From assembly GCA_963678705.1 (NCBI GenBank), contig OY783204.1, forward strand, positions 16,688,759 through 16,752,758: 64,000 nucleotides of DNA. The letters run 5' to 3'. Both the position numbers and the translations under genes were made by a program. The notes beneath the pieces were generated by a model. That model was not told the DNA's origin, did not search any database, and saw only the letters and a program-made list of their open reading frames with translations. Source of the DNA: Panorpa germanica. Its lineage: Eukaryota > Arthropoda > Insecta > Mecoptera > Panorpidae. Below are positions 1-64,000 of the stretch, piece by piece (positions within the stretch are counted from its first letter, which is position 1; every line of letters begins with the position of its first letter).

Positions 1-113
1 CGGTCCAATTATTAAAAATTAATAATATTTTTGAATATTTTCTATAATCCCTAGCATTCACATTTTTGCAAAATATCAATCACCCACCCCTTTACGATGC
101 AGGTATCAATAAA

Positions 114-181
114 CGTCCTGATTGGACGGCTTAAGTGACCAGTGGGTATATAAACCCCTTCTATTTTGAAAAAAAATCAGT
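114..181 (+). promoter_or_regulatory. Core promoter of giant-like copy 1 (inverted CCAAT, TATA, Inr)
   Basis: TATATAAA at 147-154 lies 32 bp upstream of the A of TCAGT (177-181), which matches the arthropod initiator; the predicted start is 179. An inverted CCAAT box (ATTGG, 121-125) sits in the middle of a perfect 5-bp inverted repeat, CGTCC-TGATT-GGACG (114-128). TATA, Inr and the inverted repeat are conserved at the same spacing in all four units. Motifs are seen directly; promoter function is inferred. Confidence 0.75.
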
Positions 182-314
182 TTTATATAACCTAGTACAC
201 GTTACTGAGACCTCCGCATATTATTCATTGCAAATAAATTTTGTGATTTTATTTTAAGTGAAACGCGTGTTAAGTGTGTTCATAAACATTAAATTTTCTA
301 TCACCAGTTCAGAT
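179..314 (+). other. Non-coding exon 1 (5' leader) of giant-like copy 1
   Basis: Runs from the predicted Inr start to a strong donor, AT|GTAAGT, at 315. It contains no complete ATG, so the first AUG of the spliced mRNA would be the one at 3774 in exon 2. The matching acceptor is a TTTGATTTTACAG tract ending at 3751. The leader has the same structure in every unit, although copy 4 has a 2-bp deletion. Confidence 0.7.
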
Positions 315-768
315 GTAAGTGTTTTTTTAATTTAACTATTATTATTGTTTGTTTTTGTTAAGTAAATTGTCTCATAGGTGATATATGTAACCAGTATAAA
401 TTAATTACTAAAAAAGTACGATTTTATCAATATGTAGGATACTTTATCATGGTTATGGACAGTGGCGTAGCTAGGTACCAAAGGCCCTGGTGTAAAAAGA
501 AACTGGGGCCCTAACTAAACTGTTTAGGTTTTATCAAGTCAAAATATATATAAATACCTTAAAAATACAGAACTACTAGTTTATCATCAGCTCTTTATCG
601 TGCACTGAATTCTACGGCAAAACTACTTACTATGTGCATGTGATCTTTAGTGATCGCCTAGGTTCTACAGGTGAAGAGTTTAGGAACGTATACTTGGATT
701 AGAAATATTGGTATTAAGCAATAAAAAAAAATCAAAATCACAAAAATCAAATGGTTTGTGCACGTATA

Positions 769-2801: not shown

Positions 2802-3773
2802 TATATGTACAACACTTTATTGTGCATAAAACATTAATTAAGTATATTACACACCGAGGGAAGAACGTAAGACATTTCAACCCGCGTGTAAAACTGACTC
2901 CGTTAAAATTGGCAAACACGCGGACTGGAATATCTTACTTTCTTCGCTGGCATGTATACTATTTTTCACCATATTTGTAACCGAAATTTTAAATTTCTGC
3001 CACTGTTTTGGGAGGTTAAAAAGTAACTCATAAAATGTTTCACTCATGTAAATCAGATCTGTTCGATCACGATCATTGTTTGCAAGACTCAGGAATACGA
3101 GCACCGGTTAGTACTGCATACCTCACAACAATGCTTAGCTGGTCTACCTTCGATAAATCTAAATCTAAACTGTTCTTTTTATAAAATGAAATAAAAACTG
3201 TGATTTCTCATAAGCCTCAATGTTAAATTAAAAAATTCAAAGTTCAATATATTTTTACTGGTTCGCTGCAGTTTTTCTAAAATTTAACGAGATCATTATC
3301 TTATTATAATCTACTAATACGCCAAATTTTAGAAAATATTAAACGGTAACTTTCTGACCGACAGTACTACCTTAAAATCGTGTTGCACCCTATTTTCTTT
3401 ACATTCCAAAGGTGGGAGAATTTTTAGCTAGTACAATACCAGGTTTGCTGGTCCGTGTCCGAGGGCCCCCTGAGCTTGAGGGCCTAGCTACGCCAGTGGT
3501 TATGGACCTATAGGTTTCATTTTACATTTTAATACTTCATTATGTCATAGTTCTTCATAGTACCTCTTCACCCATAGTTCTACATGATACATATCTTAGT
3601 TGAACAGTTTACATATAATTTTTGATATAACTTAAAACAATATTTTTTATTTGTACTAAAAGTGTTTGCTGGTTTTTAGATTTAGCTTTTCATGATATGA
3701 TTTTACTTTTTTGTACTAAATATATTTATTAATATGTATTTGATTTTACAGATTACGTTCAAGAAAAACAACC

Positions 3774-4763
3774 ATGTTTCCAGTTTTTTATAATCCTTTA
3801 ACTGAGCCGTTGGACCTGTCTTGTCCGCGTCGTTGTGATAGTGTTGAAACACACAAATCGCCATGCCCACCGATTAGCTCTCAGTCATTAGAGCAAGGAT
3901 CTAATAATCCTGAATCTTCAAGAACTTCCCCTAACGAAGACAAACCTACGACTCACACGATCAACCACTGTGATGTTCAGTCATTAGAGCAAGGATCTAA
4001 TAATCCTGAATCTTCAAGAACTTCCACTAACGAAGACAGACCTACGACACACACGATCAACCACTGTGATTTTCAGTCATTAGAGCAAGGATCTAATAAT
4101 CCTGAATCTTCAAGAACTTCCCCTAACGAAGACAGACTTACGACTCACACGATCAACCTTCAAAATCTTATAAATCGCATTGTCAATGCGACAACGTATC
4201 AAGGTCTGCCGCAATATCCGAGTATGTTTTTCCATCAGCAAATGCAGAATCAATTCTTTCCACATACCATTGCTCACCAAATGCCCCAAATTGAAACTCC
4301 AAAAAGAAACTCAGAAATACCTGAGTTAGAATCGGTAGCTACTTCGAATTCAACGTCGAACAGTCGTAAAAGACTTCGTCCTTTTAAGAACTACCCGAAA
4401 GACCCAGCAGAATTACCAGCTTATGTTAATGCTGAAGATAATGAAGAATATATCAAGTTTCGAGAAGCGGAAATGGCAAAAATAAATGCTTTGAATGGGG
4501 GTCAACCCACAGTCACAAACCCTAAAATGCGTCGAACTGTTCCTTCAGAAGGTGACGCTGATAACAGTTCCAACCCTAAAAAGGATCCAGCTTATTACGA
4601 GCGACGAATGAAGAATAATGCATCTGCTAAAAGATCTAGAGACAAAAGAAGAATTCATGAACACGAATCAACCATACGCATTAAGTTCTTAGAGAATGAC
4701 AATGCGAAGCTTCGTGCTGAAAATAATGCATTACGAGAGCAAGTGTTCCATCTCCCAAAATAG
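3774..4763 (+). CDS. gt-like: Giant-like bZIP transcription factor, copy 1 (329 aa, long type)
   Basis: Predicted nuclear DNA-binding repressor of the giant (gap gene) bZIP family. PLDLS at residues 12-16 is a CtBP-corepressor type motif; giant proteins are known to use CtBP. Three 32-residue repeats starting QSLEQGSNNPESS follow (37-68, 69-100, 101-128). RPFKNYPKDP (202-211) and TVTNPKMRRT (246-255) are giant/CES-2-family blocks. The bZIP spans 269-329: basic signature NNASAKRSR (281-289) and zipper leucines 306, 313, 320, 327, with Ser at 299 where giant has Ile. The end (VFHLPK) arises from a 31-bp frameshifting deletion relative to copies 3 and 4. The start is the first AUG after splicing. 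At 329 aa it is shorter than Drosophila Giant (about 450). Family assignment is strong; orthology versus lineage-specific paralogy is open. Confidence 0.9.
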   Translation: MFPVFYNPLTEPLDLSCPRRCDSVETHKSPCPPISSQSLEQGSNNPESSRTSPNEDKPTTHTINHCDVQSLEQGSNNPESSRTSTNEDRPTTHTINHCDFQSLEQGSNNPESSRTSPNEDRLTTHTINLQNLINRIVNATTYQGLPQYPSMFFHQQMQNQFFPHTIAHQMPQIETPKRNSEIPELESVATSNSTSNSRKRLRPFKNYPKDPAELPAYVNAEDNEEYIKFREAEMAKINALNGGQPTVTNPKMRRTVPSEGDADNSSNPKKDPAYYERRMKNNASAKRSRDKRRIHEHESTIRIKFLENDNAKLRAENNALREQVFHLPK

Positions 4764-6776: not shown

Positions 6777-8736
6777 TGGCCCTTATTTTGAAAGTTAAAT
6801 ATTTTTTTTTACGGCACCCTCCCTTCTGGTGCCAATGCCTAAAAAAATGATTTATGTAAAATTTTAGGTCAATCGGATAATGGGAAAACGTGCCCCAAGA
6901 GCCCCAAAAATCGAAAAATCTCTGATTTTTCTTTGAAAATTCATATATCTTGCGAATTATTTATTTTACGCAAAAACTTATTATGCAAAAGTTGTAGATC
7001 TAATAAAAATACCTACATTATCATCTATTACTTTTTCTTGTACGACTAACAATTTTCGAGAAATAGATGAAAATCAGCTCATTTATTAAAAATCCACGAG
7101 AATCGAAAAATGACAAAATCACGACATAAAAATCGATTTTATTTATTTATTTTACAAAATATTTATTATACACAAAAAAGTGTTTTACAAAAGTTGTAGA
7201 TCTATTAAAAATTCATATATTATCCTCTATCCCTTTTTTTACACACCTAACAGTTTCCGCGAAAACGGTGAAAATCAATTAATTTTTCTAAATATTTTGA
7301 CGCTGCGATAAAGTCGATTTTGTGTTTACATTTACAACTTTTAATTTGTTCCTTAATTCCAGACCTTTTATATAGCTTTTATTTTTTTGCCACACCGATG
7401 GTTCTGTCATAAGGAATTCATCATTCAAGTCAAATCTTTTGAAAAATTCTCTAGTTTCAGAAGAAACGAATTGTTCAATTCCATCGTTAATAATTTCTGG
7501 AATTTCATCTATTAGTATCTGTATTCGTTTCTCACTTGTTACTAATAAATCAGTTTCGCGATTCAAAGCATTGACCATTTTCATTTTTGAATCAAATGAC
7601 AAATTTGGTTCAAAAAAAGCTAAAGCCACTACCTCAGGGCTTAAATACCATAAATGATTCCTTAGTTTTTGTAAAGCCACTCGAGAGATATCACGATTGA
7701 TAGCTTGATATTGGAACAGTTTCGAAAGAACCTTAAAATCCTGATACGGTGTTTTTGCAGCAGAAGGCGCATAAAACCATGCTTCGACATACACATTCAC
7801 AAGAAAAATACAAATATCACAAATTGCACTTTGTTCTATTTCTAATAATTCAAATTTATCACGAAACAGAAAATTTTTCAAACAGTAAATAGCCTTTGCC
7901 ATCCACCTCGCACGATGAAAAGTCCCGGGAACCCGGAAAAATATTCCACGAGATGGTGTTTCGCCAAGAAAAATAGCTGTTAATTCTAAAAGTTCCCTAT
8001 AATCCTCTCTAGGCTGCTGTTCGTTCAAAGTGTTTCTAACAAAGTCAAGATTGTGCGATATATCGCCCCGATTCAAATGCCTCGTGATCTTTTCGTCTTC
8101 AATCCCAGATCGGAAATTTTTAAGATTGATTTTAGGCCAAGCACTTTGAAATTTTTTAAATATTGCCACAGTTGGACCTGTATTTTTGCCTATCTTTTTA
8201 TCGAAAACGCTTCTAAGGATAATTTCAATTTGGTTAAAGAAAACTGTGGGTGGGTCTTTGGATGGGGGAATAAAGTGGATATGGAAACAAAAACTACTAC
8301 GAGTCAAAATTTGAACTATCTATACAATGTACAAATCACTTTTGAATCATAGATGACGCTAATATTTTACTCACGGCACTTTGTGGTACAAGCTGAATTT
8401 CGATCATCAGTCGTTCGTCGATATAGAACGTTACATGGAAATAAAGTGATTTTCACGTATTTCTCGAAAATCGTTCGTCGTACGAAAAAAGGTCATAGAT
8501 GATAATATATGTGTTTTTAATAGATCTACAACTTTCGTATATTACATTTTTGCATAAAATTATTATTTCGCAAGATAAATAATTTTTTTTTTTAAATTCT
8601 GGAATTTTTCAATTTTCCCGGCTCTTGGGGCACCCGGATACTACATATATTATTTTTTCATGCAATGGAACCAAACTGGGGGGTGCCGCAATAAAAAATC
8701 TCAAAAATAATTTTCACCAAGAGTAAATAAGGGCCA
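6777..8736 (-). mobile_element. DNA-transposon-like element with TGGCCCTTATTT ends, unit 1
   Basis: Both ends read TGGCCCTTATTT inward. They are followed by matching subterminal blocks (a GGCACCC stretch, then GTGCCCCAAGAGCC, then TTTTCGAGAAATA), so the inverted repeats are long and imperfect, about 300 bp or more. A minus-strand ORF lies between. No clear target duplication could be found, so the superfamily is unassigned. The right end and its flank are identical in all four units. Confidence 0.65.
7288..8307 (-). CDS. Mobile-element ORF, VNDSAERGVKL family, unit 1 copy (339 aa, C-terminal part lost)
   Basis: I recognise the pattern HLWYLSPEVVALAFF followed by a FxxR/K-FDL block and KVVND from a widespread family of repetitive, uncharacterised proteins in arthropods and cnidarians; its enzyme class is unknown to me. 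After KVVN the frame runs into unrelated residues because about 120 bp present in unit 2 (about 30836-30955), which continue as DSAERGVKL, are missing here. It probably also lacks a proper N-terminus, as family members tend to be longer. Position inside inverted repeats supports a transposon origin. Probably inactive. Confidence 0.55.
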   Translation of the reverse strand: MTRSSFCFHIHFIPPSKDPPTVFFNQIEIILRSVFDKKIGKNTGPTVAIFKKFQSAWPKINLKNFRSGIEDEKITRHLNRGDISHNLDFVRNTLNEQQPREDYRELLELTAIFLGETPSRGIFFRVPGTFHRARWMAKAIYCLKNFLFRDKFELLEIEQSAICDICIFLVNVYVEAWFYAPSAAKTPYQDFKVLSKLFQYQAINRDISRVALQKLRNHLWYLSPEVVALAFFEPNLSFDSKMKMVNALNRETDLLVTSEKRIQILIDEIPEIINDGIEQFVSSETREFFKRFDLNDEFLMTEPSVWQKNKSYIKGLELRNKLKVVNVNTKSTLSQRQNI

Positions 8737-9960: not shown

Positions 9961-10360
9961 TTTGAAAAACTTTTTGATTATTGCTTGTTAAGCAGTGCAG
10001 ACGTTCTTTCTTTCAAATATTCTATAAGTTATTTAATAAAATTGTTTTTAAGTACTATTGTGTTTATTATATTAACAAAAGAAGTGTTTAAAACGAATTG
10101 AACGAGTATCCGTTGAACATTTACAAATCATCGTAGATAATCTAAATCTGTAATTAAAGTGGAAAATAAACCTTATATTATATGGTGTATAACCTATATG
10201 GTATAACATGTGGATTTCTCCTCAAACTAAATTCATAGATAAAAAGTGAAATTCCTATAAACAATGCAGTGCACAATCATTGTTCTAATAATAATAGTGT
10301 ATTGTATTGTGAATAAATTATAATCAAATCTAAATTAATTGTTACCCAATAATTAATAAG

Positions 10361-11581
10361 ATGGTGATTAGAAGTCCGCCGCAAAATACAGCAGCTTACG
10401 GCACTGATAAATCAAACATCTCTGATAAAACGGAGACCATCCCAGAGACTATACCCCAAAGTGTACCATCTCCATCCAACTGTTGGACAACCGTGCAACA
10501 CAAGAAAAGACTAAGAAGTCCAGAAGTGCTGAATGCCAGGAAACAGACAAAACTAGCCGACTATTGGCTGAGTAAACCAATAGAAACCAACAACAGTTTT
10601 GAATGCCTGACAGAAGAGGAACGAGGAAACATAGAAACCACAAAGGAGACAGATACTAATGAATCAAGCAACACAACCACTATACCCAAACCTCCACCCG
10701 TAACAATATATAAGGTAGGAGTGATTCAACTCATCCATACACTGATGCAAAAAATTACGAGTAATTATACAGTCAAATCCACTGGCTTTGAAACAATTAA
10801 AGTTCAAGTTTTTGAGGCTGAACACTTTAAAACTGTTATAAAGGAGTTGGATGAGAAAAACACCCAATACCACACCTTCAGACCAAAAAGTGAGAAAACA
10901 TTTAGGTTTGTACTAAGAGGCCTACACCACGGAACGGATGTGGAAGCAATAAAATCAGCGCTCTTGGGTCTTGGCCACGAAGCAGTGAACATTCATAACA
11001 TAAAACACAGAGTCACCAAATTACCTCTACCTATGTTTTATGTAGACCTAAAAACTAGTGGTAACAACAAAGAAGTATACAACATAGAAAAACTTGACTA
11101 TAATATTGTTAAATACGAACCACCACGTACCAAAAGAGTAATTCCACAATGTACAAGATGCCAGGCATTTGGGCATACTAAAGCATACTGTCGCAAAGTA
11201 CACAAATGCGTAAAATGTGCTGAGCAACATGAGACAAAAAATTGCTCCCGCCAAATAAAAGACAACCAAGTAAAATGCGCTAATTGTGGAGGAAATCACC
11301 CTGCAAACTACAGAGGATGTGAAGTTCATAAACAATTGCAACAAAAATTATGGCCTACACTACGTGAAAAGAAGAACATTCAAACTCAAGCTCAACCTAG
11401 CCTAGAAAGCCAAATAAGAACTGGAGTATCATACGCCCGAGCTCTTAATGATCAAACAGTACCAACAAGCACCCAACCAGTCAGCAATATGGTTAAGCTT
11501 GAAGAAATGCTTGCCAGACTCATGGAACAGATGGGGACGATGTTCAACCTACTTACTGTCGTAGTTAGTAAATTGGCCTAA
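10361..11581 (+). CDS. Jockey LINE ORF1, gag-like nucleic-acid-binding protein (406 aa)
   Basis: RNA-binding ORF1 product expected to coat LINE RNA. A polar, low-complexity N-terminus is followed by a PRE_C2HC-like region (around residues 180-255) and three zinc knuckles from about residue 264: CTRCQAFGHTKAYC, CVKCAEQHETKNC and CANCGGNHPANYRGC. Order and spacing match ORF1 proteins of Jockey and X-element. The frame is fully open. The TAA stop overlaps the ORF2 start as TAATG (11579-11583), which suggests termination-reinitiation. Confidence 0.88.
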   Translation: MVIRSPPQNTAAYGTDKSNISDKTETIPETIPQSVPSPSNCWTTVQHKKRLRSPEVLNARKQTKLADYWLSKPIETNNSFECLTEEERGNIETTKETDTNESSNTTTIPKPPPVTIYKVGVIQLIHTLMQKITSNYTVKSTGFETIKVQVFEAEHFKTVIKELDEKNTQYHTFRPKSEKTFRFVLRGLHHGTDVEAIKSALLGLGHEAVNIHNIKHRVTKLPLPMFYVDLKTSGNNKEVYNIEKLDYNIVKYEPPRTKRVIPQCTRCQAFGHTKAYCRKVHKCVKCAEQHETKNCSRQIKDNQVKCANCGGNHPANYRGCEVHKQLQQKLWPTLREKKNIQTQAQPSLESQIRTGVSYARALNDQTVPTSTQPVSNMVKLEEMLARLMEQMGTMFNLLTVVVSKLA

Positions 11582-11601
11582 TGACAGTACAACAACAAAA
11601 C

Positions 11602-12337
11602 TGGTTAAGAACGCATGCACAACCTATATATTTATATAGATATTTCACGTTCTTAATGTATTTCATTAGAATATAATTTTGTATATTTTTAGATCTTAAG
11701 TTTTGTAATAATTCTTTTGTTTAACCAAATAATTTATTTTTTCTTTGTTATTGAATTAACTAACAAAGTTATTATTACTGTTACTCTGCCATTGTATTTT
11801 ATTTTACAAACCAGTTTCAAGGGCACACAGCTGGCCTGACAAATGCATTCTTTCTATCAATGTTCTGATAAAACACTATTAAAATAATCATTATTAACTC
11901 AAACTTCATACAGTAAGCATCACTAAATATCTTTAATTATTAACTCAAACGTCGTACAATAAACACCAAAATATCAGCTCCAACTTTCAACAGTTTGATA
12001 AATTATAAGAAGATTTTAATAGTGAATTGTATCACAGTATCATTGATATATACAGTTATTCATTTAATTTTCAATTATTGTAATTCGTCAAGTGTATTCG
12101 TATAATAAATGTTTTATGTAAAAATACTAGTGTTTTGCTGCTATTTGATTTAAAGCAAGAAATAAAAAATTGTTATTAATTATTTAATAACAAAAAGGTC
12201 CTTCGAGAAACTTTGGCGCAATCCATCGCTATCAAAGGAGTTAGAAGCAATCCATCAATCTGAGAAATTGGATACCGTCAACATCGCAAATAAGCCAATC
12301 TCAAGCTTATATAGATAAATAGGTCCAAACTCAACCA
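11602..12337 (+). repeat. 5' LTR of BEL/Pao element
   Basis: 736 bp, starting TGGTTAAG and ending CTCAACCA. Contains AATAAA-type sequence and AT-rich stretches; no promoter element was assigned with confidence. Confidence 0.92.
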
Positions 12338-12339
12338 TT

Positions 12340-12357
12340 TGGTCGGCTTCGAGCCGG
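12340..12357 (+). promoter_or_regulatory. Candidate tRNA primer-binding site
   Basis: TGGTCGGCTTCGAGCCGG begins two bases after the 5' LTR. Its TTCGAGCCGG part matches the complement of the 3' end of insect tRNA-Tyr, with a mismatch/indel in the acceptor portion. The primer assignment is an inference. Confidence 0.4.
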
Positions 12358-13674
12358 ATGCGAGCTAAGATAATCAGCATTTTGATCTTTCGAAGAAGAC
12401 TCACAAACATTTGGTCATCTTCAAGAGCGGATATACATCATTAAATCATCTTCAAGAACGGATGCGAGCTAAAGATAATCAGCATTTTCATCCTTCAAAG
12501 AAGATTCCATCCATTTGATCATCTTCAAGCAAGATTCTCATCAACGGATCCAACAATTGAGCATCTTAAAAGAAGATTCACACCACACTGATCATCTTTG
12601 AAAAGGATTCATCAAGCAAGGTGAACAATCTAGAAAAATCTCACTTTTGGCGTCAAGTACAACAGCACACACGAGTCAATCGCAGCAGCATCTGGATTCA
12701 GTCTTGAAACGAGAGCTACTACACGACAGTGGTGTCAAGGTAATCCTAAAACATTTATATATTTCCCATCCTATCCTTTATTACCTCTATTTTGGGTTTT
12801 TGCACTTACATCTTACATATTTTTACAAAATTTTACATTTACTACTGTTTGAAGCGTTATTTCATTTTACCAAGGTGTTTACACATCAATGATTCATTTA
12901 CATCATAAGTTCGTATCATTGTTGTATTATATTTTTTAATCAATCTTTCAACGATATTTAGTTTCTGTTTGTAGTTAATAAATCCTTGCCACTTTAGTCA
13001 AGTCATTTAGCGTTACCAAGCTATTGACCATCTATAGGGCTCGTATTAGTGTCATTAAGCACACACACACACACACATTAATTGCATTGGTTGCGAATTT
13101 TAGATTCCATAAATATAGCCTCTTATTACGTCATTTAATGTCCTCTCATAGGAATACGACACTTAGAGCACATATGCCAATCGCATTATTTAGCGAATAT
13201 AATTATTCCATTTTAAGCATTTGAATATATTTGTTCAAATCAAAATACTCATCTGTGTATTTTGCACAGAAATCTTTTTACGTGTTACGTAATAGATCAT
13301 CGATTATATTATTGCATCCACATAATATATATCTTTTTCAATTATTTTTTAAATATTTGAATTATATTTGTGTCATTCAGCACACATACATTAATTGCAT
13401 TGGTTGCGAACATTCGATTCCATAAGTATAATCTCACATAGGTCATCTAACGTCCTCTCATAGGATTAAGACATTTAGAGTACATACGCCAATCGCATTT
13501 AAATAGCGAATATTATTATTCCATTTTTAGCGTTTGAATTTTCAAACCAAAATTACCGTCTGTGTATTTTGCACAGAAGTCTTTTACGTATTTTACGTAA
13601 TAGATTACCTTCATATTATTTGCATCAGCAATAATACACTATTAATCATTAGAGATTTTAAAGTCACATTCACA
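12358..13674 (+). other. BEL/Pao 5' leader with internal duplications
   Basis: 12400-12610 holds loosely repeated GATCATCTTCAAG-like motifs. A block of about 280 bp is duplicated: about 13047-13330 and 13370-13645 share CATTAATTGCATTGGTTGCGA, CGTCCTCTCATAGGA and TGTGTATTTTGCACAGAA landmarks. A short (CA)n lies at 13060-13077. No gene is called here; open stretches are leader read-through. Confidence 0.6.
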
Positions 13675-16659
13675 ATGTCTTTAAAAACCTTAATCACAAA
13701 AATACATAGTATTAAATCATCATTAAAACGATGCAGTAAAGCCATCGAAAATATTGATATAAAAGATCCATCCACGTACGATGTGGAAAATATAAGGTTT
13801 CTTCATAAACAATGGGAACCACTAATGGCTTCTATTAATAAAACTCACTCTCAAATGAGAGAATTAGTAGAAGATGAGAGTGAATTGGATGCCATTGATG
13901 AAGAAAATACCGATTTTTGGATGCAATACGTTAAAATAGGCGCAAAAATCAATAAAATTATCTCAGCGTCTAAATCAATTGAAGCATCATGCACTTCAAT
14001 TTCTAAAGCTGCCACTTCCAGCACACTTACAGCGCAAGTCAAACGCACAAGTCAAGATATGTTATCAACTGCTTTAGTCAACATACCTGACAAAAACGGT
14101 AAAATAATTACTGCACGCGCGCTTCTGGATAACGGTAGTACATCAAGTTTTATTACCAAGAGTTTAGTACAAAAATTAAACATTCACACTACAAATTCGG
14201 ATGTAGTTGCTACCGGAATTGATAACTCCGAAGCTAAAACACATAAGCAAGCAAAAATCATTTTGCATTCATCTATTAACAATTACAAAACGTTTGTAAA
14301 TTGTCTGCTCATAGACACAATAACCGACAAAATCCCACGCATCAAATTGGATATTGTCAATCTATCAATACCGCATACAATAAAACTAGCAGATCCTAGT
14401 TTTAACGAACCACAATCTGTGGATTTATTGTTAGGAGCTGACATTTTTTGGAAATTATTACGCGTAGGCAAATCAACACTATCCAATAATCGATTGCAGT
14501 TGCAAAATACTTCACTAGGTTGGATAGTTACTAAATACAAATCTGCTACCAACAACAATCATGTGCATCATTATCACACATCCTTGCAAACTCAAATTCG
14601 CAAGCTTTGTGAAAGCGAGTATGTTAAAGAATGTGGCACTTTAATTACAAAAGAACAAACTCAAATTCACAAGGTTTGTGAAAGCGAGTCTGTTAAAAAA
14701 TGTAGAACTTTAACTTCAGAGGAACAAGCATGCCATGATCATTGTAGCAAAACTACTACTCGCGATTCAGATCGTAGATTCGCAATTACATCACCATTAA
14801 AATTGCCCACATCAGCCCTAGGGGATACCAAAACCACAGCTACCAAACAATTGCTTTCATTCGAAAGAAAATTTGATAGAAACAAACAACATAAATCTAT
14901 GTATTCTGCATTCACTCATGAATATATACGATCAGGTCATATGACCACTAACATTATTCAAAATTCATCCGAATCTACATATATTTTACCGCATCACGGT
15001 ATAGGAGATCCCAAAACAGCAATTACTAAACCCTTTCTTTTACCACAAAGAAAGCGTGTTACTAGTAAACCTCATAAATCATTCACATTGTCAAACTACT
15101 CCATAGCCAAGTCAAATTTTATATTTGACAAATTTTCAAATTTTAAATCGATCAATAGCGTCACCACATACTATTTACGTTTCATTCAAAATTCTAGAAA
15201 CAAGACAAACGGCATTTCTACGGTCAAGGAATTGCATAATTCAATTCAAATACTTATGAAATTTACCAAAGCAAATGTTTTATCATTAATAGCTAGAACC
15301 TTGGATCCACTCGCATTACTATTGCCTTGTGACATACCATGCGAATTAATGATACAACAACTATGGTTAATTAGCTTACATACAAGGTCTAAATTATTAT
15401 TCTTAAATTCACATCCATATGCCACAAACACCACTCTTAATGATTCATATGTTGATAAGCTACTGACTGGATCAAATGATCTATCAGAACTCAAGCTCCG
15501 CTGTATTAAAACATTAGAAACATTAAGTAGTGCAGGATCTTATTTACGGAAATGGATGTCGAATGATCACATTATTTTATTCAATTTAGACAACACCATT
15601 CAAGACCAACATTTTATTATAGATCACGCAGACTTAGAGCATTTTAAAACTTTAATTGTCAAATGGTGCTCAAAAACAGATTGTTTCAAATACAATATCG
15701 CCCATTTTGATCCACCTATAAAATTACCCAATAAAAATGTTCTATTTTTCATTGCCAAAATCTTTGATCCACATGGATTATTATCACCCTACGTCAAACC
15801 GTTTATGCTATTGAGACAACAAGTAAGGCTAACAAATCTACACTGGAATGTTGAAATTCCAGAAATTTCAGTAAAAACATGGACTCCTGTAATAAAGCAA
15901 TTACCAAGCTTAAACAATGCATCCATACCACAAAAATCATTAATCAAGAATTCCAAAACATTTGAAATTCATGGTTTTTGTGATGTGTTAAAAAATGCAT
16001 ATGGTTCTTGTATTTATTTTAAATCTATTAACTGCAATATCATAATTGACAAACTCTTCTATATCGACCCAGGAGGTATAGAATATTTCATATTAATCAT
16101 TATTCAATATTTCAATTTAATCGTTAAATGGCCCTCTAAACCTAACTGTTTTAAATACAGTATATTGCATTTTTATCTACTTGCCAAATTAACGAAATTA
16201 AATTATCATAACAACTTCAAACTCACTTGTACACTGCAAACTCAAATTGAGGCAATCCTCAATTTCCATCCCTTTTTTTCCGCTTCCAATAATCCCAATG
16301 ACCTAATTCCCTTCACACCTGGACACCTCTTAATAGGACGGCAGATCACAAGAATCGCTCCTGCAGAGGACGCTCTAACTAAATTAAGCCGAACGCAGCG
16401 CTACTCGCAATTTCAAGACTTTATTCAAAGTTGTTGGATAAAAAGGTCAAGCGAATACTTAGGACGCTGTAATCAGCTCGTGAAGTGGAAAATGTCAAAG
16501 GATGCTGTACTGCAGAAAGGAACTTTGGTCCTAGTCAAGGAGCCAAACTTTCATCCATCGCAATGGATGTTGGATAGCCCAGTGAAATTAAGTGTTAGTG
16601 AAGTTTCAGCGACTCGAGCAGCCACTATCAAGACAGCTAAGGGAAAAACCAGCGTCTAG
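13675..16659 (+). CDS. BEL/Pao polyprotein, rearranged and catalytically deficient
   Basis: The frame is open from 13534, but I choose ATG 13675 because the first 47 codons lie in the duplicated leader. Counting residues from 13534: a gag-like start (from 48), an aspartic protease with LLDNGS at about 197-202 (DNG for the usual DSG/DTG) and VDLLLGADIFW around 300, then low-similarity polar sequence with a duplicated QTQIxKxCESE segment. The end of the RT carries YVDK (639-642) in place of YVDD. IAKIFDPHGLLSP with a following HGFCD is the Pao connection/RNase H region, and the tail (RYSQFQDFIQSCWIKRSSEY) resembles DUF5641. An A17-like block (ARTLDPLALLLP) precedes YVDK, out of normal order. 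The RT palm and integrase core are missing. The frame is uninterrupted, so it is translatable but not enzymatically autonomous. Confidence 0.78.
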   Translation: MSLKTLITKIHSIKSSLKRCSKAIENIDIKDPSTYDVENIRFLHKQWEPLMASINKTHSQMRELVEDESELDAIDEENTDFWMQYVKIGAKINKIISASKSIEASCTSISKAATSSTLTAQVKRTSQDMLSTALVNIPDKNGKIITARALLDNGSTSSFITKSLVQKLNIHTTNSDVVATGIDNSEAKTHKQAKIILHSSINNYKTFVNCLLIDTITDKIPRIKLDIVNLSIPHTIKLADPSFNEPQSVDLLLGADIFWKLLRVGKSTLSNNRLQLQNTSLGWIVTKYKSATNNNHVHHYHTSLQTQIRKLCESEYVKECGTLITKEQTQIHKVCESESVKKCRTLTSEEQACHDHCSKTTTRDSDRRFAITSPLKLPTSALGDTKTTATKQLLSFERKFDRNKQHKSMYSAFTHEYIRSGHMTTNIIQNSSESTYILPHHGIGDPKTAITKPFLLPQRKRVTSKPHKSFTLSNYSIAKSNFIFDKFSNFKSINSVTTYYLRFIQNSRNKTNGISTVKELHNSIQILMKFTKANVLSLIARTLDPLALLLPCDIPCELMIQQLWLISLHTRSKLLFLNSHPYATNTTLNDSYVDKLLTGSNDLSELKLRCIKTLETLSSAGSYLRKWMSNDHIILFNLDNTIQDQHFIIDHADLEHFKTLIVKWCSKTDCFKYNIAHFDPPIKLPNKNVLFFIAKIFDPHGLLSPYVKPFMLLRQQVRLTNLHWNVEIPEISVKTWTPVIKQLPSLNNASIPQKSLIKNSKTFEIHGFCDVLKNAYGSCIYFKSINCNIIIDKLFYIDPGGIEYFILIIIQYFNLIVKWPSKPNCFKYSILHFYLLAKLTKLNYHNNFKLTCTLQTQIEAILNFHPFFSASNNPNDLIPFTPGHLLIGRQITRIAPAEDALTKLSRTQRYSQFQDFIQSCWIKRSSEYLGRCNQLVKWKMSKDAVLQKGTLVLVKEPNFHPSQWMLDSPVKLSVSEVSATRAATIKTAKGKTSV

Positions 16660-16741
16660 TGCAATATCTCGTTCCGCTACTTATTACAGAACATCAGTTG
16701 AAAATCAAGATGAATCTTACAATTTTCAACGCGCGGGAGTA

Positions 16742-17477
16742 TGGTTAAGAACGCATGCACAACCTATATATTTATATAGATATTTCACGTTCTTAATGTA
16801 TTTCATTAGAATATAATTTTGTATATTTTTAGATCTTAAGTTTTGTAATAATTCTTTTGTTTAACCAAATAATTTATTTTTTCTTTGTTATTGAATTAAC
16901 TAACAAAGTTATTATTACTGTTACTCTGCCATTGTATTTTATTTTACAAACCAGTTTCAAGGGCACACAGCTGGCCTGACAAATGCATTCTTTCTATCAA
17001 TGTACTGATAAAACACTATTAAAATAATCATTATTAACTCAAACTTCATACAGTAAGCATCACTAAATATCTTTAATTATTAACTCAAACGTCGTACAAT
17101 AAACACCAAAATATCAGCTCCAACTTTCAACAGTTTGATAAATTATAAGAAGATTTTAATAGTGAATTGTATCACAGTATCATTGATATATACAGTTATT
17201 CATTTAATTTTCAATTATTGTAATTCGTCAAGTGTATTCGTATAATAAATGTTTTATGTAAAAATACTAGTGTTTTGCTGCTATTTGATTTAAAGCAAGA
17301 AATAAAAAATTGTTATTAATTATTTAATAACAAAAAGGTCCTTCGAGAAACTTTGGCGCAATCCATCGCTATCAAAGGAGTTAGAAGCAATCCATCAATC
17401 TGAGAAATTGGATACCGTCAACATCGCAAATAAGCCAATCTCAAGCTTATATAGATAAATAGGTCCAAACTCAACCA
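16742..17477 (+). repeat. 3' LTR of BEL/Pao element
   Basis: Matches the 5' LTR over 736 bp with one visible difference. Preceded by a short purine-rich GCGGGAG (about 16733-16739), a weak polypurine-tract candidate. Confidence 0.92.
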
Positions 17478-20351
17478 AAAACTATAAACAACAAAAGTAT
17501 AAATTATGTATTTGGAACGCAAACGGTTTACACCAACACTCTCGGGAAATAAAAACTTTTTTAATTGACCAAGACATAGATATCATGATGGTATCAGAGA
17601 CCCACTTCACTGAACGGCACTACATTAGTATTCCAAAATATAAAATATACCACACTAGACATCCGGATGGTAAGGCACATGGTGGAACTGCAATAATTAT
17701 AAAAGATAGTATTGCACATCATGAAAGAGAGAAGTTTGCAATGGATTATTTACAGGCCACCAGTATTACTATTGAAAATGAAGTTAGCCCAGTAACAATC
17801 TCAGCAATTTATTGTCCACCAAAACACAACAACAAGAAGGAACACTACGTGACCTTTTTTGAAACACTGGGTAACAAATTTGTGGCAGGGGGTGACTATA
17901 ACGCCAAGCATCCAACATGGGGCTCGAGAATAACTAATACCAAGGGTAAAGAACTAGTAAAAGCAATGAGTGCTAAAAATCTAAGATCAATTTCAACTTA
18001 CGAACCAACTTACTGGCCTTCTGACGTAAAAAAAGTTCCGGATGTGATCGATTTTTGTATCACTAAAGGTGTTGACCCGAAAAAGTGTAAAGCGGAATCC
18101 TGTTTAGATTTGTCATCAGATCACTCTCCGGTGATTATTACTGTATACGAGGAAATACGCAGTAGAAAAACTGGGCCATCCTTGCACAATAATCGAACTA
18201 ACTGGGACCTTTTTAGATCAAAGCTAAATGAGTCTATTTCGTTAAGTATACCACTGAAAACTGAACTGGAAATTGAAATAGCAGTAGAACACCTTACTAG
18301 AAACATCCAAGAAGCAGCATGGTTTGCTACTCCCACGCATAAAGCAATCCAAGGGAAGAAGAATGATGTGCCCCTACTCATTAAGGAGAAAATAATGGAG
18401 AAAAGACATCTACGTAAACAATGGCAACTATGCAAATCACCTGCTAATAAAAGAAAATTAAATAGAGCTATAAAAGGCCTAAAGGAATTGATAGTGGAGC
18501 ATAATAACCAATGTATTCAAGAATATCTTGAAAATTTAACACCATCGGAAGCTACGGAGTACTCGCTGTGGAAAGCAACAAGGAAGATGAAAAGACCAGA
18601 GATACACAACCCTCCTATCAAAGATGACAAAAATAAATGGGCAAGGAATGATAAAGAAAAGGCTACGATGTTTGCTAATCATCTGCAGGAAGTATTCAAA
18701 CCGTATCCTTCAGAAACGGCAGCAGAAGAAGAAAATGGTATTTTGGATTTTCTGGACAGCCCTTTCCAAATGGACTTTCCTCATAAGGAAATTGCAACCA
18801 AGGAAACTTGGGAAACAATAGTAAAAGAAATCGATATTAGGAAATCACCCGGTTTTGACCTAATCACAGGAAAGATAATATTCGAACTATCTAAGAAAAG
18901 TATAAAACTAATTACTTTCATTTTTAATGCAATTCTTAGAACCAACTACTATCCTAGTAGTTGGAAGGTTGCTCAAATAATTATGATTCCGAAACCTGGG
19001 AAAAAACCGGAAGAGGTTACTTCCTATAGGCCCATTAGTTTACTGCCGATACTATCGAAATTATTTGAAAAAATATACGTTAAGAGGTTAAAATGTATCA
19101 TTAATGAAAAAAAGCTAATTCCCGAACATCAATTTGGCTTCCGCAATAAGCACGGTACTGTAGAACAAGTACATCGGTTGGTTAACACAATTAATAAAGA
19201 TTTAAATGCCAAAAGATATTGCTCAGCAGCTTTTCTAGACATAGCCCAAGCCTTCGACAAAGTGTGGCATAGGTCTTCAATATAAACTGAAAAAAATACT
19301 TCCGTACCAAGATTATCAACTATTGAGATCATATATGACTAATAGGCACTTCATGGTTAAAATAGGTAGCGAATGCACTGAATTGAAACCCATCCAGTCA
19401 GGAGTCCCTCAGGGAAGTGTCCTAGGACCCACACTTTACCTTCTGTATACTTCCGATTTGCCAACTACAACAGAAACTACCGTTGCTACGTTTGCAGACG
19501 ATACTGCTATATTAGCATCACACACAGACCCAGTATCGGCATCACGGAATCTACAGACTAACCTTGATATGATTCAAGAATGGCTCAAGAAATGGCGAAT
19601 AAAAGCAAACGAAAGTAAATCAACGCATGTAACATTTACCACGCGCAGAGAAACTTGCCCGCATGTGAAAATAAATAATTGTGTAATTCCACAATCCAAT
19701 GACGCTAAATATCTCGGTATACATTTGGACAGATGGCTTACCTGGCAAAAGCACATTTTTACAAAGCGTAAGCAGCTTGGTCTTAAAATCAGGAAAATGT
19801 ATTGGATAATTGGTCGAAAGTCAAAACTCTCTCTGGACAACAAAGTACTTATATATAAAACCATTCTGAAACCCATCTGGACTTACGGAATTCAGCTTTG
19901 GGGCACTGCATGCAACTCCAAAATAGCCATAATCCAGCGATTTCAAAATAAAGTACTACGACTCATTGTAGATGCACCATACTACGTCACTAACGAAGTC
20001 ATCCAGAAAGACATCCCAATAGCATCCATCAAAGATGAAATATACCTATCCAGCACAAAATATAGTGATAGATTAATCAACCATCCCAATGCGTTGGCGA
20101 ATCAACTGAACGTGTGTGACAACAGGGAACCCCGCAGATTAAGGCGATATCAACCAATAGACCTAACTTTAGGTCCGCGATAGGGAATAGTGCACAATAT
20201 ATGATATATTATAATAGATTATTGTATATAAAAACAAGAGGGCATTCACTGGAATGTTTCTCTTACATGTCTTAATTAATTATGCAAGTAATCATGTAAG
20301 AAGCTTATTGCCTACTTAGGCAGATTGCTGAAACAATAGGAGAAATAAAAA

Positions 20352-44511: not shown

Positions 44512-44533
44512 ATTACGTTCAAGAAAAACAACC

Positions 44534-56098: not shown

Positions 56099-56166
56099 CG
56101 TCCTGATTGGACGGCTTAAGTGACCAGTGGGTATATAAACCCCTTCTATTTTGAAAAAAAATCAGT
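56099..56166 (+). promoter_or_regulatory. Core promoter of giant-like copy 4
   Basis: Inverted repeat (56099-56113), TATATAAA (56132-56139) and TCAGT (56162-56166) preserved at the same spacing. Confidence 0.75.
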
Positions 56167-56721
56167 TTTATATAACCTAGTACACGTTACTGAGACCTCC
56201 GCATATTATTCATTGCAAATAAATTTTGTGATTTTATTTTAAGTGAAACGCGTTAAGTGTGTTCATAAACATTAAATTTTCTATCACCAGTACAGATGTA
56301 AGTGTTTTTTTAATTTAACTATTATTATTGTTTGTTTTTCTTAAGTAAATTGTCTCATAGGTGATTTATGTAACCAGTATAAATTAATTACTAACAAAGT
56401 ACGATTTTATCAATATGTAGGATACTTTATCATGGTTATGGACTCACCCATACCTAGCTACGCCAGTGGTTATGGACCTATAGGTTTCATTTTATATTTT
56501 AATACTTCATTGTGTCATAGTTCTTCATAGTACCTCTTCACCCATAGTTCTACATGATACATATCTTAGTTGAACAGTTTACATATAATTTTTGATATAA
56601 CTTAAAACAATATTTTTTATTTGTACTAAAAGTGTTTGCTGGTTTTTAGATTTAGCTTTTCATGATATGATTTTACTTTTTTGTACTAAATATATTCATT
56701 AATATGTATTTGATTTTACAG
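56164..56721 (+). other. Exon 1 and shortened intron of giant-like copy 4
   Basis: Exon 1 at 56164-56297, with a 2-bp deletion in the GCGTGTTAAG stretch. Donor GTAAGT at 56298, acceptor AG at 56720-56721. The intron is about 424 bp because the hAT element is almost wholly deleted. Confidence 0.75.
56443..56468. mobile_element. 26-bp scar of the hAT-like element, copy 4
   Basis: Between two GTTATGGA octamers (56435-56442, 56469-56476) only CTCACCCATAC plus the right terminus (CTAGCTACGCCAGTG) remains. The left part is non-element filler, consistent with abortive excision and repair or an internal deletion. Confidence 0.78.
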
Positions 56722-56743
56722 ATTACGTTCAAGAAAAACAACC

Positions 56744-57508
56744 ATGTTTCCAGTTTTTTATAATCCTTTAACTGAGCCGTTGGACCTGTCTTGTCCGCGT
56801 CGTAGTGATAGTGTTGAAACACACAAATCGCCATGCCCGCCGATTAGCTCTCAGTCATTAGAGCAAGGATCTAATAATCCTGAATCTTCAAGAACTTCCC
56901 CTAACGAAGACAAACCTACGACTCACACGATAAACAATATGGCAACGCAAGGTCCACTGCCGCTATATCCGGATATGTTTTTCCATCAGCAGATTTTGAA
57001 TCATTTCTTTCCACATACCATTGCTCACCAAATGCCCCAAATGGACACTCCAAAAAGAAACTTAGAAACACCTGAGTTAGAATCGGTAGCTACTTCGAGT
57101 TCAACGTCGAACAGTCGTAAAAGACCATCTTATTTTAATGCTGAAGATAATGAAGAATATATCAAGTTTCGAGAAGCGGAAATGGCAAAAATAAATGCTT
57201 TGAATGGGGGTCAACCCACAGTCACAAACCCTAAAATGCGTCGAACTGTTCCTTCAGAAGGTGACGCTGATAACAGTTCCAACCCTAAAAAGGATCCAGC
57301 TTATTACGAGCGACGAATGAAGAATAATGCATCTGCTAAAAGATCTAGAGACAAAAGAAGAATTCATGAACACGAATCAACCATCCGCATTAAGTTCTTA
57401 GAGAATGACAATGCGAAGCTTCGTGCTGAAAATAATGCGTTACGCAAGCAAATAGAGAGGCATCAGAAATCAGAATTAAACCATGTTCCATCTCCCAAAA
57501 TAGAGTGA
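56744..57508 (+). CDS. gt-like: Giant-like bZIP transcription factor, copy 4 (254 aa, short type)
   Basis: Nearly identical to copy 3: PLDLS, one repeat, NMATQGPLPLYPDMFF, RKRPSYFNAED, the same basic region and the IERHQKSELNHVPS tail. Protein differences seen are Gln to Leu in the QQIxNHFF stretch, Glu to Lys after the third zipper leucine (LRKQ), and Ser to Pro near the end. Because the Glu/Lys change lies beside zipper position e/g, it might alter dimer preference; that is an inference. Promoter, splice sites and poly(A) signal are intact. Confidence 0.9.
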   Translation: MFPVFYNPLTEPLDLSCPRRSDSVETHKSPCPPISSQSLEQGSNNPESSRTSPNEDKPTTHTINNMATQGPLPLYPDMFFHQQILNHFFPHTIAHQMPQMDTPKRNLETPELESVATSSSTSNSRKRPSYFNAEDNEEYIKFREAEMAKINALNGGQPTVTNPKMRRTVPSEGDADNSSNPKKDPAYYERRMKNNASAKRSRDKRRIHEHESTIRIKFLENDNAKLRAENNALRKQIERHQKSELNHVPSPKIE

Positions 57509-59626: not shown

Positions 59627-60733
59627 TATAAGGACATTAACATTATTGCTGTCAGCCAAAGAAAAATTGAGGTGGAGACCAATAGCCCATTTCTGGCTAA
59701 TAAAATTATAGAAGACGCCATAGTTCTAGCTAAATACAAGAGCATAATTCCGAAGAATTTGGTAGAAGTGCAGGGACTAATCGACTTACACCCCGATAAT
59801 CTGGATGACGTATTCCTACATGACGCAGTAGGCTTTAATAAAAATAGTAGACAGTTGGCACCAAAAATTACCGATTTTATTAGATTTAATAGAATTGAAG
59901 AAGGCAAAAAGACTCCTACTTGGAAGTTCCTAATATCCTTTAGCGGGGATAAGATCCCGGAATATATAGCCTTCCAGGGTATCCTTTACCCAGTTTCGGC
60001 GTATATACAGAGAATTAGACAGTGTCGTCGGTGCTGGAAATTTGGCCACTCCACTAATTTCTGCAGAAGTGCTGAATATTGCCAATTTTGTGGTGGAGAT
60101 CACAGCTCTTTAAGTTGCAAGAAAGAGAAGTTATTTTGTCGCAACTGTAAAGAAGACCATAAAGCTGACGATAGATCCTGCAGCAAATACTTAGAATTGA
60201 AAAATAAAAACGAAGCTAAAGCTAAAACTACCTATATAGAATAAATTAAAATTGATCGTGGGAAAGAGGTATTTACATTAAACCTTTTTGAGTTCCCTTC
60301 TTTGGAAGAAAGTATAAATAAAAAGAAATTTACAGACTGTATTATAAGCGGTGAACCGGAAGGAAAATCCGTAGTTTTGAAAATTTCAGAGCCCCGCAGA
60401 TCCCCCCGAGAAGTAAAGAAAAGGACGTGGAAACCTGACAATACACATAAGGTAAAGGAAAACGAACGCTCTAAGCCAATTCCCGTAAATAAAACCGATA
60501 AAGTGAAAGAACCAGAGATAATTAAGAAATCAGAGTTCGTTAAGAAAACTGATTTAGACAAAAATATTATTGAGAATTCAGAAGAGATCAGAGATTCAGA
60601 GGAGATAAACCAAAATATTGATACTGACGAAGTAGTTTTAGAAGCAGAAACTATTACTAATAATTTGAACCAAAAAATTGTAAATAACCATACTATTCCA
60701 CCCCCAGATAATCAAAATATTGAAATGTTCTAA
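59627..60733 (+). pseudogene. I-type LINE ORF1, unit 4
   Basis: Same zinc-knuckle protein as in unit 2. One nonsense change (AAA to TAA, 60242-60244) interrupts an otherwise continuous frame ending at 60733; the indels that disrupt the unit 2 copy near 33310 are absent here. Confidence 0.82.
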
Positions 60734-60764
60734 TACAAATATTAGTTAACAAACATAATAAAAA

Positions 60765-63700
60765 ATGTATAAAAATACTTGTATAATGCAATGGAACTGC
60801 CGCAGTTTAAAATCCAAATTGATAAATCTTAAACAACTAGTTTTTGAAAATAATATTGATATAATCGCGCTCTCGGAAACCTGGCTTGATCCATCTTATA
60901 AAATCAAATGGAGAAATATGGAACTAGTAAGAGCAGATAGAAATAACAACGGTGGAGGCGTTGCTCTAGTAATAAACCATAACATTTTTATTGACAAAAT
61001 TTTAATTCCTCTCTCAGGGGATATTGAAATTATAGGAGCAAAAATTAAATGGGGTAATGAGCATATTAATGTTGTATCTCTTTATGCCCCAGCAACAGCA
61101 TCTATTACTACAGGAATATTAAATGCAATATTAAGATCTATTCCAGAACCAAGGCTAATTCTAGGTGACTGGAATGCTAAAGCCATTGCTTGGGGTCCTA
61201 TGACTGTCCAAGGGGTAAATTTATATGTCAGATGATGGACAATAACAACATGATGTTCCTTAATGATGGTTCTCCTACTCGAATCGACATCCATTCAGGA
61301 ACAGCGTCAGCAATTGATTTATCATGGGCAACCCCATCTCTTGGTAGCCAACTTTCATGGAACGTAATGGAGGATCAACTAGGTTCTGATCACGCCATTA
61401 TACTTATGAATGGGGCACAAATTGGTCAATCAAGCAGAGGCAAGGAAAGATTTAAATTAAACATTGTACCAAATACAATCGACTGGGACAATTTCTCTAA
61501 CCAAATAGAAACAGACTTATTGGCAAACCAAATTCAGTCCAATACTACGCTGGAAAAAAAGTATAATTACCTCATTGACTCAATTGAGTCTGCAGCTAAA
61601 AAGTGGGGGAAAAATATTGCAAACAATAAAATCTCAAAATATCCGCCAAATCCTTGGTGGGATGATGAATGCAAAGAGGCTGTGCAAAACAGAAAAAGAG
61701 CCTACAGAAGATACCACCGAAATAGTTCTGAAACAAATAAAGTAGCTTTAAAAAAAGTAGAATCTGAAACGACCAACTTACTAAAGTTCAAGAAAAGACA
61801 AGCTTGGAGAAACCTTGCCGAAGAGTTAAACCATAATTTAACTACTAAACAATTATGGGGAAAAATTAATAGGATGAGAGGTTCAGGAAAATGCACGAAA
61901 ACAAATTCACCTAACAGTGAGGACTTGTTATGTGAACTTTCACAAGTAATAGCACCGCCCTGGGTACCTGAGCAAGAAAGCGTACTATATGGAGTCACTC
62001 AAGACGACTCGAGTAAAATGATGATTAAAGAAGTAGAAATGTGGGAGCTACAATCTCACCTTATAATGACGAAAACAACCACGCCCGGTCCAGATGGAAT
62101 ATCTTATGAAATGTTAGGCCATCTCCCATCAATCGCTAAAAAGTTATTATTAAACATATACAACACAATTTTGGATGAAGAACTAATTCCTGAGTCCTGG
62201 AAAAATACTCAGATTGTTCCAATATTAAAAATAGATAAGCCAGTAAATCAACCAACCTCATATAGACATATAACTCTCATTAATTGCTGCAGAAAAGTCT
62301 TTGAGAAAATATTGAAAACGAGATTAGAACATTGGTTAGATTCTAAGTCGTTAATACCAAAGCAAATTTTAGGCTGTAGAAGAGGTAGAAGTACCAGGGA
62401 TGGCATATTTGCATTATCAGCTAGAATTGAAGCAGGAAAAAACAAAGGCAACGTATCAATGGCCTGTTTTGTAGATATCAAAGCAGCTTTCGATAATGTA
62501 AACATCAATTTTTTATTAAGGCAATTATATGTAATAGGAGTACCGAGAGTAATAATTAATATACTAAAGAATTTACTAAGTGGCAGGAATACTCAACTAT
62601 GGTTTAATGGATTACTATCGGACTGGAGACTATGTTCTAAAGGCATTTTACAAGGCTCAGCACTAAGTCCTCTTCTCTTTAATATGATGGTTAGGTCAAT
62701 AAAACCGTATCTCAACCCAACAATATCATGGATATCATATGTGGATGACTTAGTTTTCTTATCACAAGAAAATACTACAGAGGAGACTGGAAAACAAATG
62801 CAAAAGATTGTAAATAACTTAGAGAAATGGCTTAATGGTGCTTGTTTAGAAGCATCAACAGAAAAATCTAAACTAATGATTTTTAACATGAGTTCAAAAA
62901 TATCACAGCCACCTATAATAACTCTAGGTAAACAAAAATTGGAATACACAAATAATTATATATACTTAGGATTTCCATTTTCCACAAATAAATCCGAAAA
63001 ATCAATAATACTCAATATTAAAAAGAAAGCTGAACCTGCAATCAATATACTCAAAATGTTTGCTGGACAAAGATGGGGACTAAATACATCTTCTCTACTA
63101 AATTTATATAAATCATTAGTCCGCCCTCATTTGGAGTATGGTGCAGAGGTACTAATAATGTGTAAAAAGAATACAATAGAATCACTTGAAAAATTGCAAT
63201 ATAAAGCTTTAAGAATAGTATTAGGAGCTATCTGTACAACTCATACCCTTTCATTACTAGCAGAGGCTTGTATGCCACCATTAAAAGAAAGATGGATAAA
63301 GAAAACGTCTTACTTTATGGCTAGCGCTTTAATGACAAATAACACATTAATAAGGGACGAACTTAACGAATTATCAAGAACAGGTTCAAGAAGTCATGAG
63401 CTTAATGCAATTTGGATAAATGAAAAAAGGAAATGGACAGAAAGAGGAACCCCAGTAGAAATACCAATTTTCGAATTAGATTATTATTACTCAGGTAGAG
63501 GAACTCCTGCAAACATAACTATTGGCAAGGAGCTAAATATGAGTAACACATTACCTGAGCTAATAACTATAGACTTACAACAAAAATTAGATCAACAATT
63601 CCCGAATTATACAAAATTATATACTGACGGCTCAAAAGAAGCAGATGGAGTGGGTGCAGCAGTAGTAGATATTAACAATAGCATAATTTACAAGCTTCGT

Positions 63701-64000
63701 AATCAAGCATCCATATATACAGCTGAGTTATGTGCTATAGATCTAGCTGTGGATCAAATCATTACTGATGACAGAGACAGCACTTTAATATTATCCGACT
63801 CGTTATCAGTCATACAGTCGTTAAGCAGTAAGGGAATCAATACAAAATTAGACAACAAAATTTATTATGTCAAAGAAAAAATAAATAAGGAAATAGATAA
63901 GGGCCGAAATATTAAACTAATTTGGATACCGTCACATAAGGGAATTAAGGGAAATGAAAAAGCTGATCAAATGGCCAAGGTAGCTACTTCCTGTGATAAA
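60765..64000 (+). pseudogene. I-type LINE ORF2, unit 4 (one frameshift, otherwise open)
   Basis: Endonuclease start (QWNCRSL, LSETWL) to GDWNAKAIAWG, then a small deletion at about 61195 shifts the frame and ends the first part at 61235. From 61232 the downstream frame appears open for 923 codons to the window edge, through RT and RNase H. The lesions that break the unit 2 copy between 34784 and 36152 are all absent. Two substitutions hit conserved prolines: RT GIPQG reads GILQG (62648-62650) and SYRPIT reads SYRHIT. YVDD is at 62738-62749. RNase H YTDGSK and GNEKADQMAK are present. Confidence 0.85.

Follow-up and report, generated by a model that had tools for sequence, protein, structure and literature searches.

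A stretch of 64,000 nucleotides from chromosome 1 of the scorpionfly Panorpa germanica (chr1 16688759-16752758; contig OY783204.1 of assembly GCA_963678705.1), referred to here as the window, was analysed, and the genes found in it were followed through the rest of the genome. The window carries four head-to-tail genes for basic leucine zipper (bZIP) proteins. These genes are probably copies of the gap gene giant, amplified in this lineage into an alternating array on chromosome 3 and further copies on chromosomes 1, 5 and X. Giant of Drosophila is a bZIP protein, and the gene is usually described as single copy in well-studied insects. Gap genes act near the top of the segmentation hierarchy and should be sensitive to dosage, and scorpionflies come from an order close to Diptera.

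Tandem amplification of giant had been proposed in a preliminary description of the window, and it proved to be larger than claimed there. Our searches of the genome covered 464,208,970 bases in 249 contigs; the genome note for the species gives 464.2 Mb, 20 autosomes and an X chromosome, and we read contig C21 as the X. Thirty-three giant-family copies were located genome-wide, most with open reading frames (ORFs): 23 on chromosome 3, seven on chromosome 1, two on chromosome 5 and one on the X. When the genome was searched at the protein level, the 61 matches obtained were assigned to 33 gene bodies, two other bZIP genes and partial pieces, and a search with the bZIP_2 domain gave 51, comprising the same 33 family copies and 18 others. 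When the 147 bp preceding the ATG were used as a DNA query, 38 places were found and were assigned to the 33 genes and five partial exon duplicates. These duplicates, each an acceptor block with early codons, lie upstream of the coding sequences of L016-L019 on contig C3 in steps of about 315 bp and could be extra acceptors.

Window units and the two copy classes

Within the window, which holds four of the seven chromosome 1 copies, the open bZIP frames lie on the + strand and run from stop to stop at 3744-4763, 27277-28296, 44504-45298 and 56714-57508, with spacings of 23.5, 17.2 and 12.2 kb. Self-BLAST of the window showed the units as direct repeats, most aligned blocks reaching 91-99% identity and some stretches falling lower, for example to 85% across the coding repeat; no inverted repeats of at least 200 bp were found in the window under the settings of the repeat tool. 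The motifs TVTNPKMRRT, KKDPAYYERR and NNASAKRSR, earlier taken as signatures of the giant family, were present in all four translations. Pfam bZIP_2 was matched at the C-terminus by both ORFs that were scanned, those of copies 1 and 3 (E 4.5e-14 and 8.7e-14; 52.7 and 51.8 bits; cut-off 22.3). NCBIfam returned only matches below its cut-offs, and Rfam gave no match at gathering scores. The structure model of copy 3 contained a helix at 209-245, with a mean predicted local distance difference test score (pLDDT) of 90-93 over 211-240, and a second helix at 137-153; it was poor elsewhere (overall mean 56.4).

The promoter, splice sites and poly(A) signal that had been described for the units were confirmed in all four. 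Each unit has a TATATAA core promoter and an initiator (Inr)-like TCAGTT whose A lies 32 bases on, then a 5′ untranslated region (UTR) exon with a GTAAGT donor at its end, an acceptor reading TTTTACAG, an ATG 22 bases further on, and AATAAA about 20 bases past the stop codon. The description of four intact copies held strictly for two of them. A 31-bp segment near the 3′ end of the ORF is present in units 3 and 4, where the tail reads IERHQKSELNHVPS[SP]KIE, and missing in units 1 and 2, where the frame shifts at the end of the zipper and the tail becomes VFHLPK. Units 1 and 2 also carry a 96-bp coding repeat in 2.9 copies.

Beyond the window, chromosome 1 has three more copies, one with a TGA, and one of the two chromosome 5 copies is frameshifted. 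The chromosome 3 array (C3:13369186-13547180) extends over 178 kb in a strict B-A-B-A order that ends A-A, with 12 A and 11 B copies. Chromosome 3 copies recur about 53.6 kb apart, and coding sequences are identical in triplets, for example L017-L019. The two classes differ at the promoter: a 221-bp promoter/exon-1 segment was matched at all 21 non-X A-type copies (7/7 on chromosome 1, 2/2 on chromosome 5 and the 12/12 chromosome 3 A copies), and no match was obtained at any of the 11 B copies. They also differ in a PLDLS motif, which is present in the seven chromosome 1 copies (including the four in the window), both chromosome 5 copies, the X copy and the chromosome 3 copy next to the gene tko; this stretch is missing from all ten B copies read (of 11). 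PXDLS is described as a CtBP motif that occurs in Drosophila giant and other repressors (PMC3671672).

The basic region reads YYEQQMRSNAAA[EK]KSRD in the three aligned B copies versus YYERRMKNNA[AS]AK[KR]SRD in A copies. Since the core N and R are retained, DNA binding by B copies may be weakened rather than lost. Variation concentrates in the zipper. The first heptad position is S, not L, in the six chromosome 1 copies that read so far, L017-L019 have two additional residues separating basic region and zipper, L020-L022 have lost the zipper, and L016 has gained about three additional heptads (AMLRAED/AMLRDEN repeats). Such changes may alter partner choice. The earlier statement that at least two protein types exist was right, and the range is broader than was stated there.

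Relationship to giant

In Drosophila, the neighbours of giant are CG32797 and tko (PMC3852391). In P. germanica, the orthologue of tko, which encodes mitoribosomal S12, was found 21 kb from the last chromosome 3 copy (C3:13546323). A search of the genome for the S12 family gave two matches, one of the mitochondrial type (tko) and the other, by reading, of the cytoplasmic S23 type. Because the last copy lies near tko, as Drosophila giant does, we take the chromosome 3 array as the orthologous giant locus; the arrangement indicates that the ancestral locus on chromosome 3 is itself now an array, and the strongest candidate for the ancestral gene is the last copy, which has a 0.4-kb intron. This microsynteny holds for the chromosome 3 array; what ties the window copies to the array is their sequence and the promoter they have in common with it, rather than their position. 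A promoter and exon 1 similar in sequence to those of the window units also precede the tko-adjacent copy. In the trees, the six chromosome 1 copies used grouped with the one chromosome 5 copy used.

As a control for a giant gene elsewhere in the genome, the 18 non-family bZIP_2 matches were translated and, by reading, comprised vrille-like, PAR-like, C/EBP-like, XBP1-like, ATF3-like and other common types, together with one on chromosome 7 that may be of the giant/PAR group. From their basic regions we named a vrille-like gene (C21:2930148), a PAR-like gene (C15:12882457) and a PAR/CES-2-like gene (C7:16437808). The ATF3-like gene, likewise named by reading, lies at C3:13592066-13592227 (-), 45 kb from the last giant copy. 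NFIL3 was the only protein among the PDB chains matched at E<0.01. The window gene was rejected as a vrille orthologue, as the separate vrille-like gene on C21 matches window copy 2 at 39% over the bZIP. Nor is it closer to the PAR-type genes than to the tko-adjacent copy: the basic region of copy 3 has 27 of 30 residues in common with the tko-adjacent copy versus 17 for the PAR-type gene and 16 for the chromosome 7 gene.

A canonical single-copy giant had been suggested as something to look for elsewhere in the genome. None with tko synteny was found, and the nearest single-copy relative, on chromosome 7, was not found beside tko. This gene has two exons (C7:16437808 and about 16438646, + strand) with the zipper in the second, and was single copy in the searches made. 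Its best PDB match was also NFIL3, and a limited pattern scan of 4.5 kb found no Asp-Leu-Ser codons in it. The chromosome 7 gene appears to be of PAR/CES-2 type, with some doubt, and it may still bear on the identity of giant.

Origin, selection and competing explanations

Amplification of giant would have proceeded as follows. On chromosome 3, duplication of the ancestral gene beside tko would have given rise to the alternating A/B array, and copies would also have reached chromosome 1 (seven copies), chromosome 5 and the X. The most likely route of the amplification is unequal exchange between units with a common LINE (long interspersed nuclear element) and other repeats. For the A copies outside the X, the window sequence and similarity elsewhere indicate a TATA-type promoter, a UTR exon, one intron and one coding exon per copy, so that each is probably transcribed on its own. 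The protein is probably a bZIP dimer that would repress through the observed PLDLS motif of CtBP type. Because the copies differ most in the zipper and in PLDLS, the amplification has probably both raised the dosage and yielded copies that differ in partner choice or strength. B copies would be either modulators that lack the repression motif or genes in the course of being lost.

The amplification can be taken further, to a state in which no single-copy giant is left. The 23-gene array beside tko would alternate A copies carrying the repressor motif with B copies that have neither promoter nor motif and whose basic region is altered, the latter perhaps serving as alternative last exons from A promoters; satellite clusters would add different zippers, and the gap function would be carried by a pool of dimerising variants. 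We regard this extension as tentative and on the whole unlikely.

Codon analyses were carried out on 28 of the 33 copies (20 distinct sequences); L004, L011, L025, L026 and the eleventh B copy (C3:13369186) were omitted. The ratio of nonsynonymous to synonymous change (omega) was 0.47 for the chromosome 1 and 5 copies and 0.14 for their bZIP (four distinct sequences), 0.65 for chromosome 3 B copies, and, across the family, 0.65 for the bZIP and 0.95 for the N-terminal part. Pairwise synonymous divergence (dS) was 0.11-0.26 between most clades, 0.01-0.08 within chromosome 1 and 0.09-0.14 between chromosomes 1 and 5. If insects change at about 3e-9 per site per generation and the species has one generation each year, the dS between clades would correspond, very roughly, to 20-45 million years.

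Several observations weigh against an amplified and functional giant family. Omega over the 20 distinct copies was 0.825 and that of the chromosome 3 A copies 1.3, both close to neutral; pairwise values of B versus other copies were often 1.0-1.4, and all omega values are estimates without a formal test. A stop or frameshift lies within the coding region in seven of the 33 copies: L004 has a stop, L011 a frameshift and L025 and L026 a stop at codon 18, and L020-L022 make up the remainder. The tail is altered in three chromosome 1 copies (L001, L002, L008). ALDLS or SLDLS replaces PLDLS in 11 of the 12 chromosome 3 A copies, the exception being the tko-adjacent one, and the 221-bp promoter segment had no match at the single X copy. 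As to the identity of the gene, orthology with giant is suggested by microsynteny and motifs, and the basic region of the chromosome 7 gene has 18 of 30 residues in common with the tko-adjacent copy, where the PAR-type gene has 19 and the vrille-like gene 17.

Much of this is what neutral amplification predicts, in which LINE-driven recombination would have multiplied the unit, most copies would be undecayed, non-functional passengers, and the tko-adjacent copy would be the one functional giant. Near-neutral omega, the lesions, the identical coding sequences in repeats about 53.6 kb apart and the LINE contained in the unit all fit it, and we hold it to be a genuine, although minority, possibility. 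With a family omega of 0.83, relaxed constraint and recurrent duplication would explain much of the expansion, and the new roles or dosage selection proposed earlier are a tentative suggestion. However, coding constraint is real: the substitutions on the tree were estimated at 517, and as 4.3% of random changes would create a stop, 22.4 stops would be expected without constraint, whereas three stop-type events were counted, all in copies omitted or truncated. This count excludes the L011 frameshift and the 31-bp tail deletion, and the L020-L022 stop that it includes may be derived from an indel; the comparison is also biased because the tree was built from copies kept for being open. Moreover, no amino-acid change was seen in the bZIP columns among the five chromosome 1 copies compared, with bZIP dS of up to 0.067, and every non-X A-type copy has a promoter match. 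Between clades, the last 144 bp ahead of the ATG diverge by 3-9% in the eight copies compared, about a third to half of dS, with X, A and B alike, and the 130 bp upstream of this block differ by 7-14% where aligned. A TATA-like stretch was noticed by eye about 30 bases before the acceptor in the 144-bp block (e.g. window 56600-56743), and the block may hold a second promoter.

Multi-copy drive systems of the X and autosomes exist, and they provide a precedent for a germline conflict, in which the copies would be expressed in testis or ovary and take part in an arms race involving the X copy instead of embryonic patterning. One X copy (C21) alongside copies on three autosomes, and rapid protein evolution, would agree with it. 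On the other hand, the X copy is single and has no promoter/exon-1 match, its pairwise omega is 0.73-1.40 versus the copies compared, and nothing germline-specific was seen in the sequence, in which no search aimed at such features was made; we consider this explanation improbable. An assembly artefact, with haplotypes or a repeat falsely expanded, is very improbable, for although some coding sequences are identical and chromosome 3 copies come every 53.6 kb or so, the genome note reports HiFi coverage of 52x, a consensus quality value (QV) of 59.9 and 14 haplotypic duplications removed in curation, the chromosome 1 units are not of equal length, diverge by several per cent in sequence and have unequal ORF spacings, and the copies lie on four chromosomes with one tko.

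Repeats of the window and comparison with known systems

The features of the window are collected in Table 1. The site of the unit 2 LINE is also occupied in unit 4 (from 59559 to the window end) and in unit 3, which keeps a 5′ and 3′ remnant (about 47338-47749); unit 1 lacks the LINE at this common site. Comparison of the window's four units thus showed tandem units sharing an interspersed LINE in one orientation. The transposons around the genes had been described as decaying, which is true of the unit 3 LINE and does not apply to the Pao-type element of unit 1, whose long terminal repeats (LTRs) are 99.86% identical; this element is evidently a young insertion.

Table 1. Predicted genes and repeats of the window (positions in the window)
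Feature	Position	Strand	Details
Unit 1 core promoter and 5′ UTR exon 1	140..314	+	TATATAA at 147, Inr-like TCAGTT at 177, donor GTAAGT 315-320; predicted from sequence
Unit 1 exon 2, bZIP ORF	3752..4763	+	ATG 3774, 329 aa, tail altered by 31-bp deletion; acceptor end 3751; AATAAA 4787-4792
Dispersed repeat ORF, mostly decayed	7288..8319	-	relatives 30864-31946 (-), 46018-46551, 58354-59004; not array-specific
Second LINE, unit 1	10334..20183	+	PRE_C2HC ORF1, endonuclease/reverse transcriptase ORF2; probably a single element; split by Pao-type LTR retrotransposon
Pao-type LTR retrotransposon inside unit 1 LINE	11602-17477		736-bp LTRs; AAAAC on both sides
Unit 2 core promoter and exon 1	23670..23844	+	donor 23845-23850
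Unit 2 exon 2, bZIP ORF	27285..28296	+	ATG 27307, 329 aa, tail altered as unit 1; AATAAA 28320-28325
LINE in unit 2	32501..37851	+	ORF1 without Pfam match, resembling a zinc knuckle by eye; Pfam matches to endonuclease, reverse transcriptase and RNase H
Unit 3 core promoter and exon 1	42964..43138	+	donor 43139-43144
Unit 3 exon 2, bZIP ORF	44512..45298	+	ATG 44534, 254 aa, full tail; AATAAA 45317-45322
Unit 4 core promoter and exon 1	56125..56297	+	donor 56298-56303; intron about 0.4 kb, as in tko-adjacent chromosome 3 copy
Unit 4 exon 2, bZIP ORF	56722..57508	+	ATG 56744, 254 aa, full tail; AATAAA 57527-57532

A reading of the minus-strand ORF of 343-360 aa as another gene of the unit was rejected: its longest copy had 125 matches listed genome-wide, most with stops, and no Pfam family exceeded its cut-off. 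One member of this ORF family, at C6:20948613, has an open frame of 401 aa with 41% identity. Self-BLAST also showed an inverted-repeat element in the introns of units 1 and 2 (window 765-2811), with ends reading CAGGGTGTCC, which we take to be mariner-like. Nuclear fragments of mitochondrial cox1 were seen in C1, C3, C5, C16, C21 and other contigs, 19 of 20 among the matches listed lying outside contig C249.

No expansion of giant was recognised in searches of an open-access library for giant duplications or Panorpa segmentation, as judged by titles and the beginnings of abstracts, and the word 'giant' has no occurrence in the main text of the Panorpa cognata paper. The process is a familiar one, as the parallel with moth Shx genes indicates; an amplification of this gene, in this insect order, with copies on four chromosomes and an alternation of A and B, was not found reported in these searches. 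Moth Shx genes, derived from zen, have expanded in tandem in the Hox cluster to up to 165 loci with interspersed LINE elements (PMC9977156). They are the nearest parallel to the P. germanica family: in both, a developmental transcription factor that evolves fast has multiplied in tandem next to its parent gene within one lineage, with interspersed LINEs and high copy number. Unlike Shx, it involves a bZIP gene, giant, not a homeobox gene, in Mecoptera, has reached three further chromosomes and comprises two strictly alternating classes; in P. germanica, no unamplified parent gene with the synteny of giant was found apart from the array.

Compared with giant of Drosophila melanogaster, the tko neighbour (PMC3852391) and the PxDLS-type CtBP motif (PMC3671672) are common to both, whereas the scorpionfly has 33 copies, zippers that are shortened, lost or extended, and B copies without the motif. 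With vrille/NFIL3, PAR and CES-2-type proteins the family shares the bZIP_2 domain, and its closest solved structures are NFIL3; it differs from the vrille, PAR and PAR/CES-2 types in that P. germanica has separate genes of these types, named by reading. Some thirty copies of giant would make it possible to test whether a segmentation network merely withstands such amplification or puts it to use, with the copies on chromosomes 3, 1, 5 and X as natural replicates of a changed zipper, a changed repression motif and a lost promoter. The family would also extend the LINE-associated multiplication of patterning transcription factors beyond moth Shx to other genes and orders.

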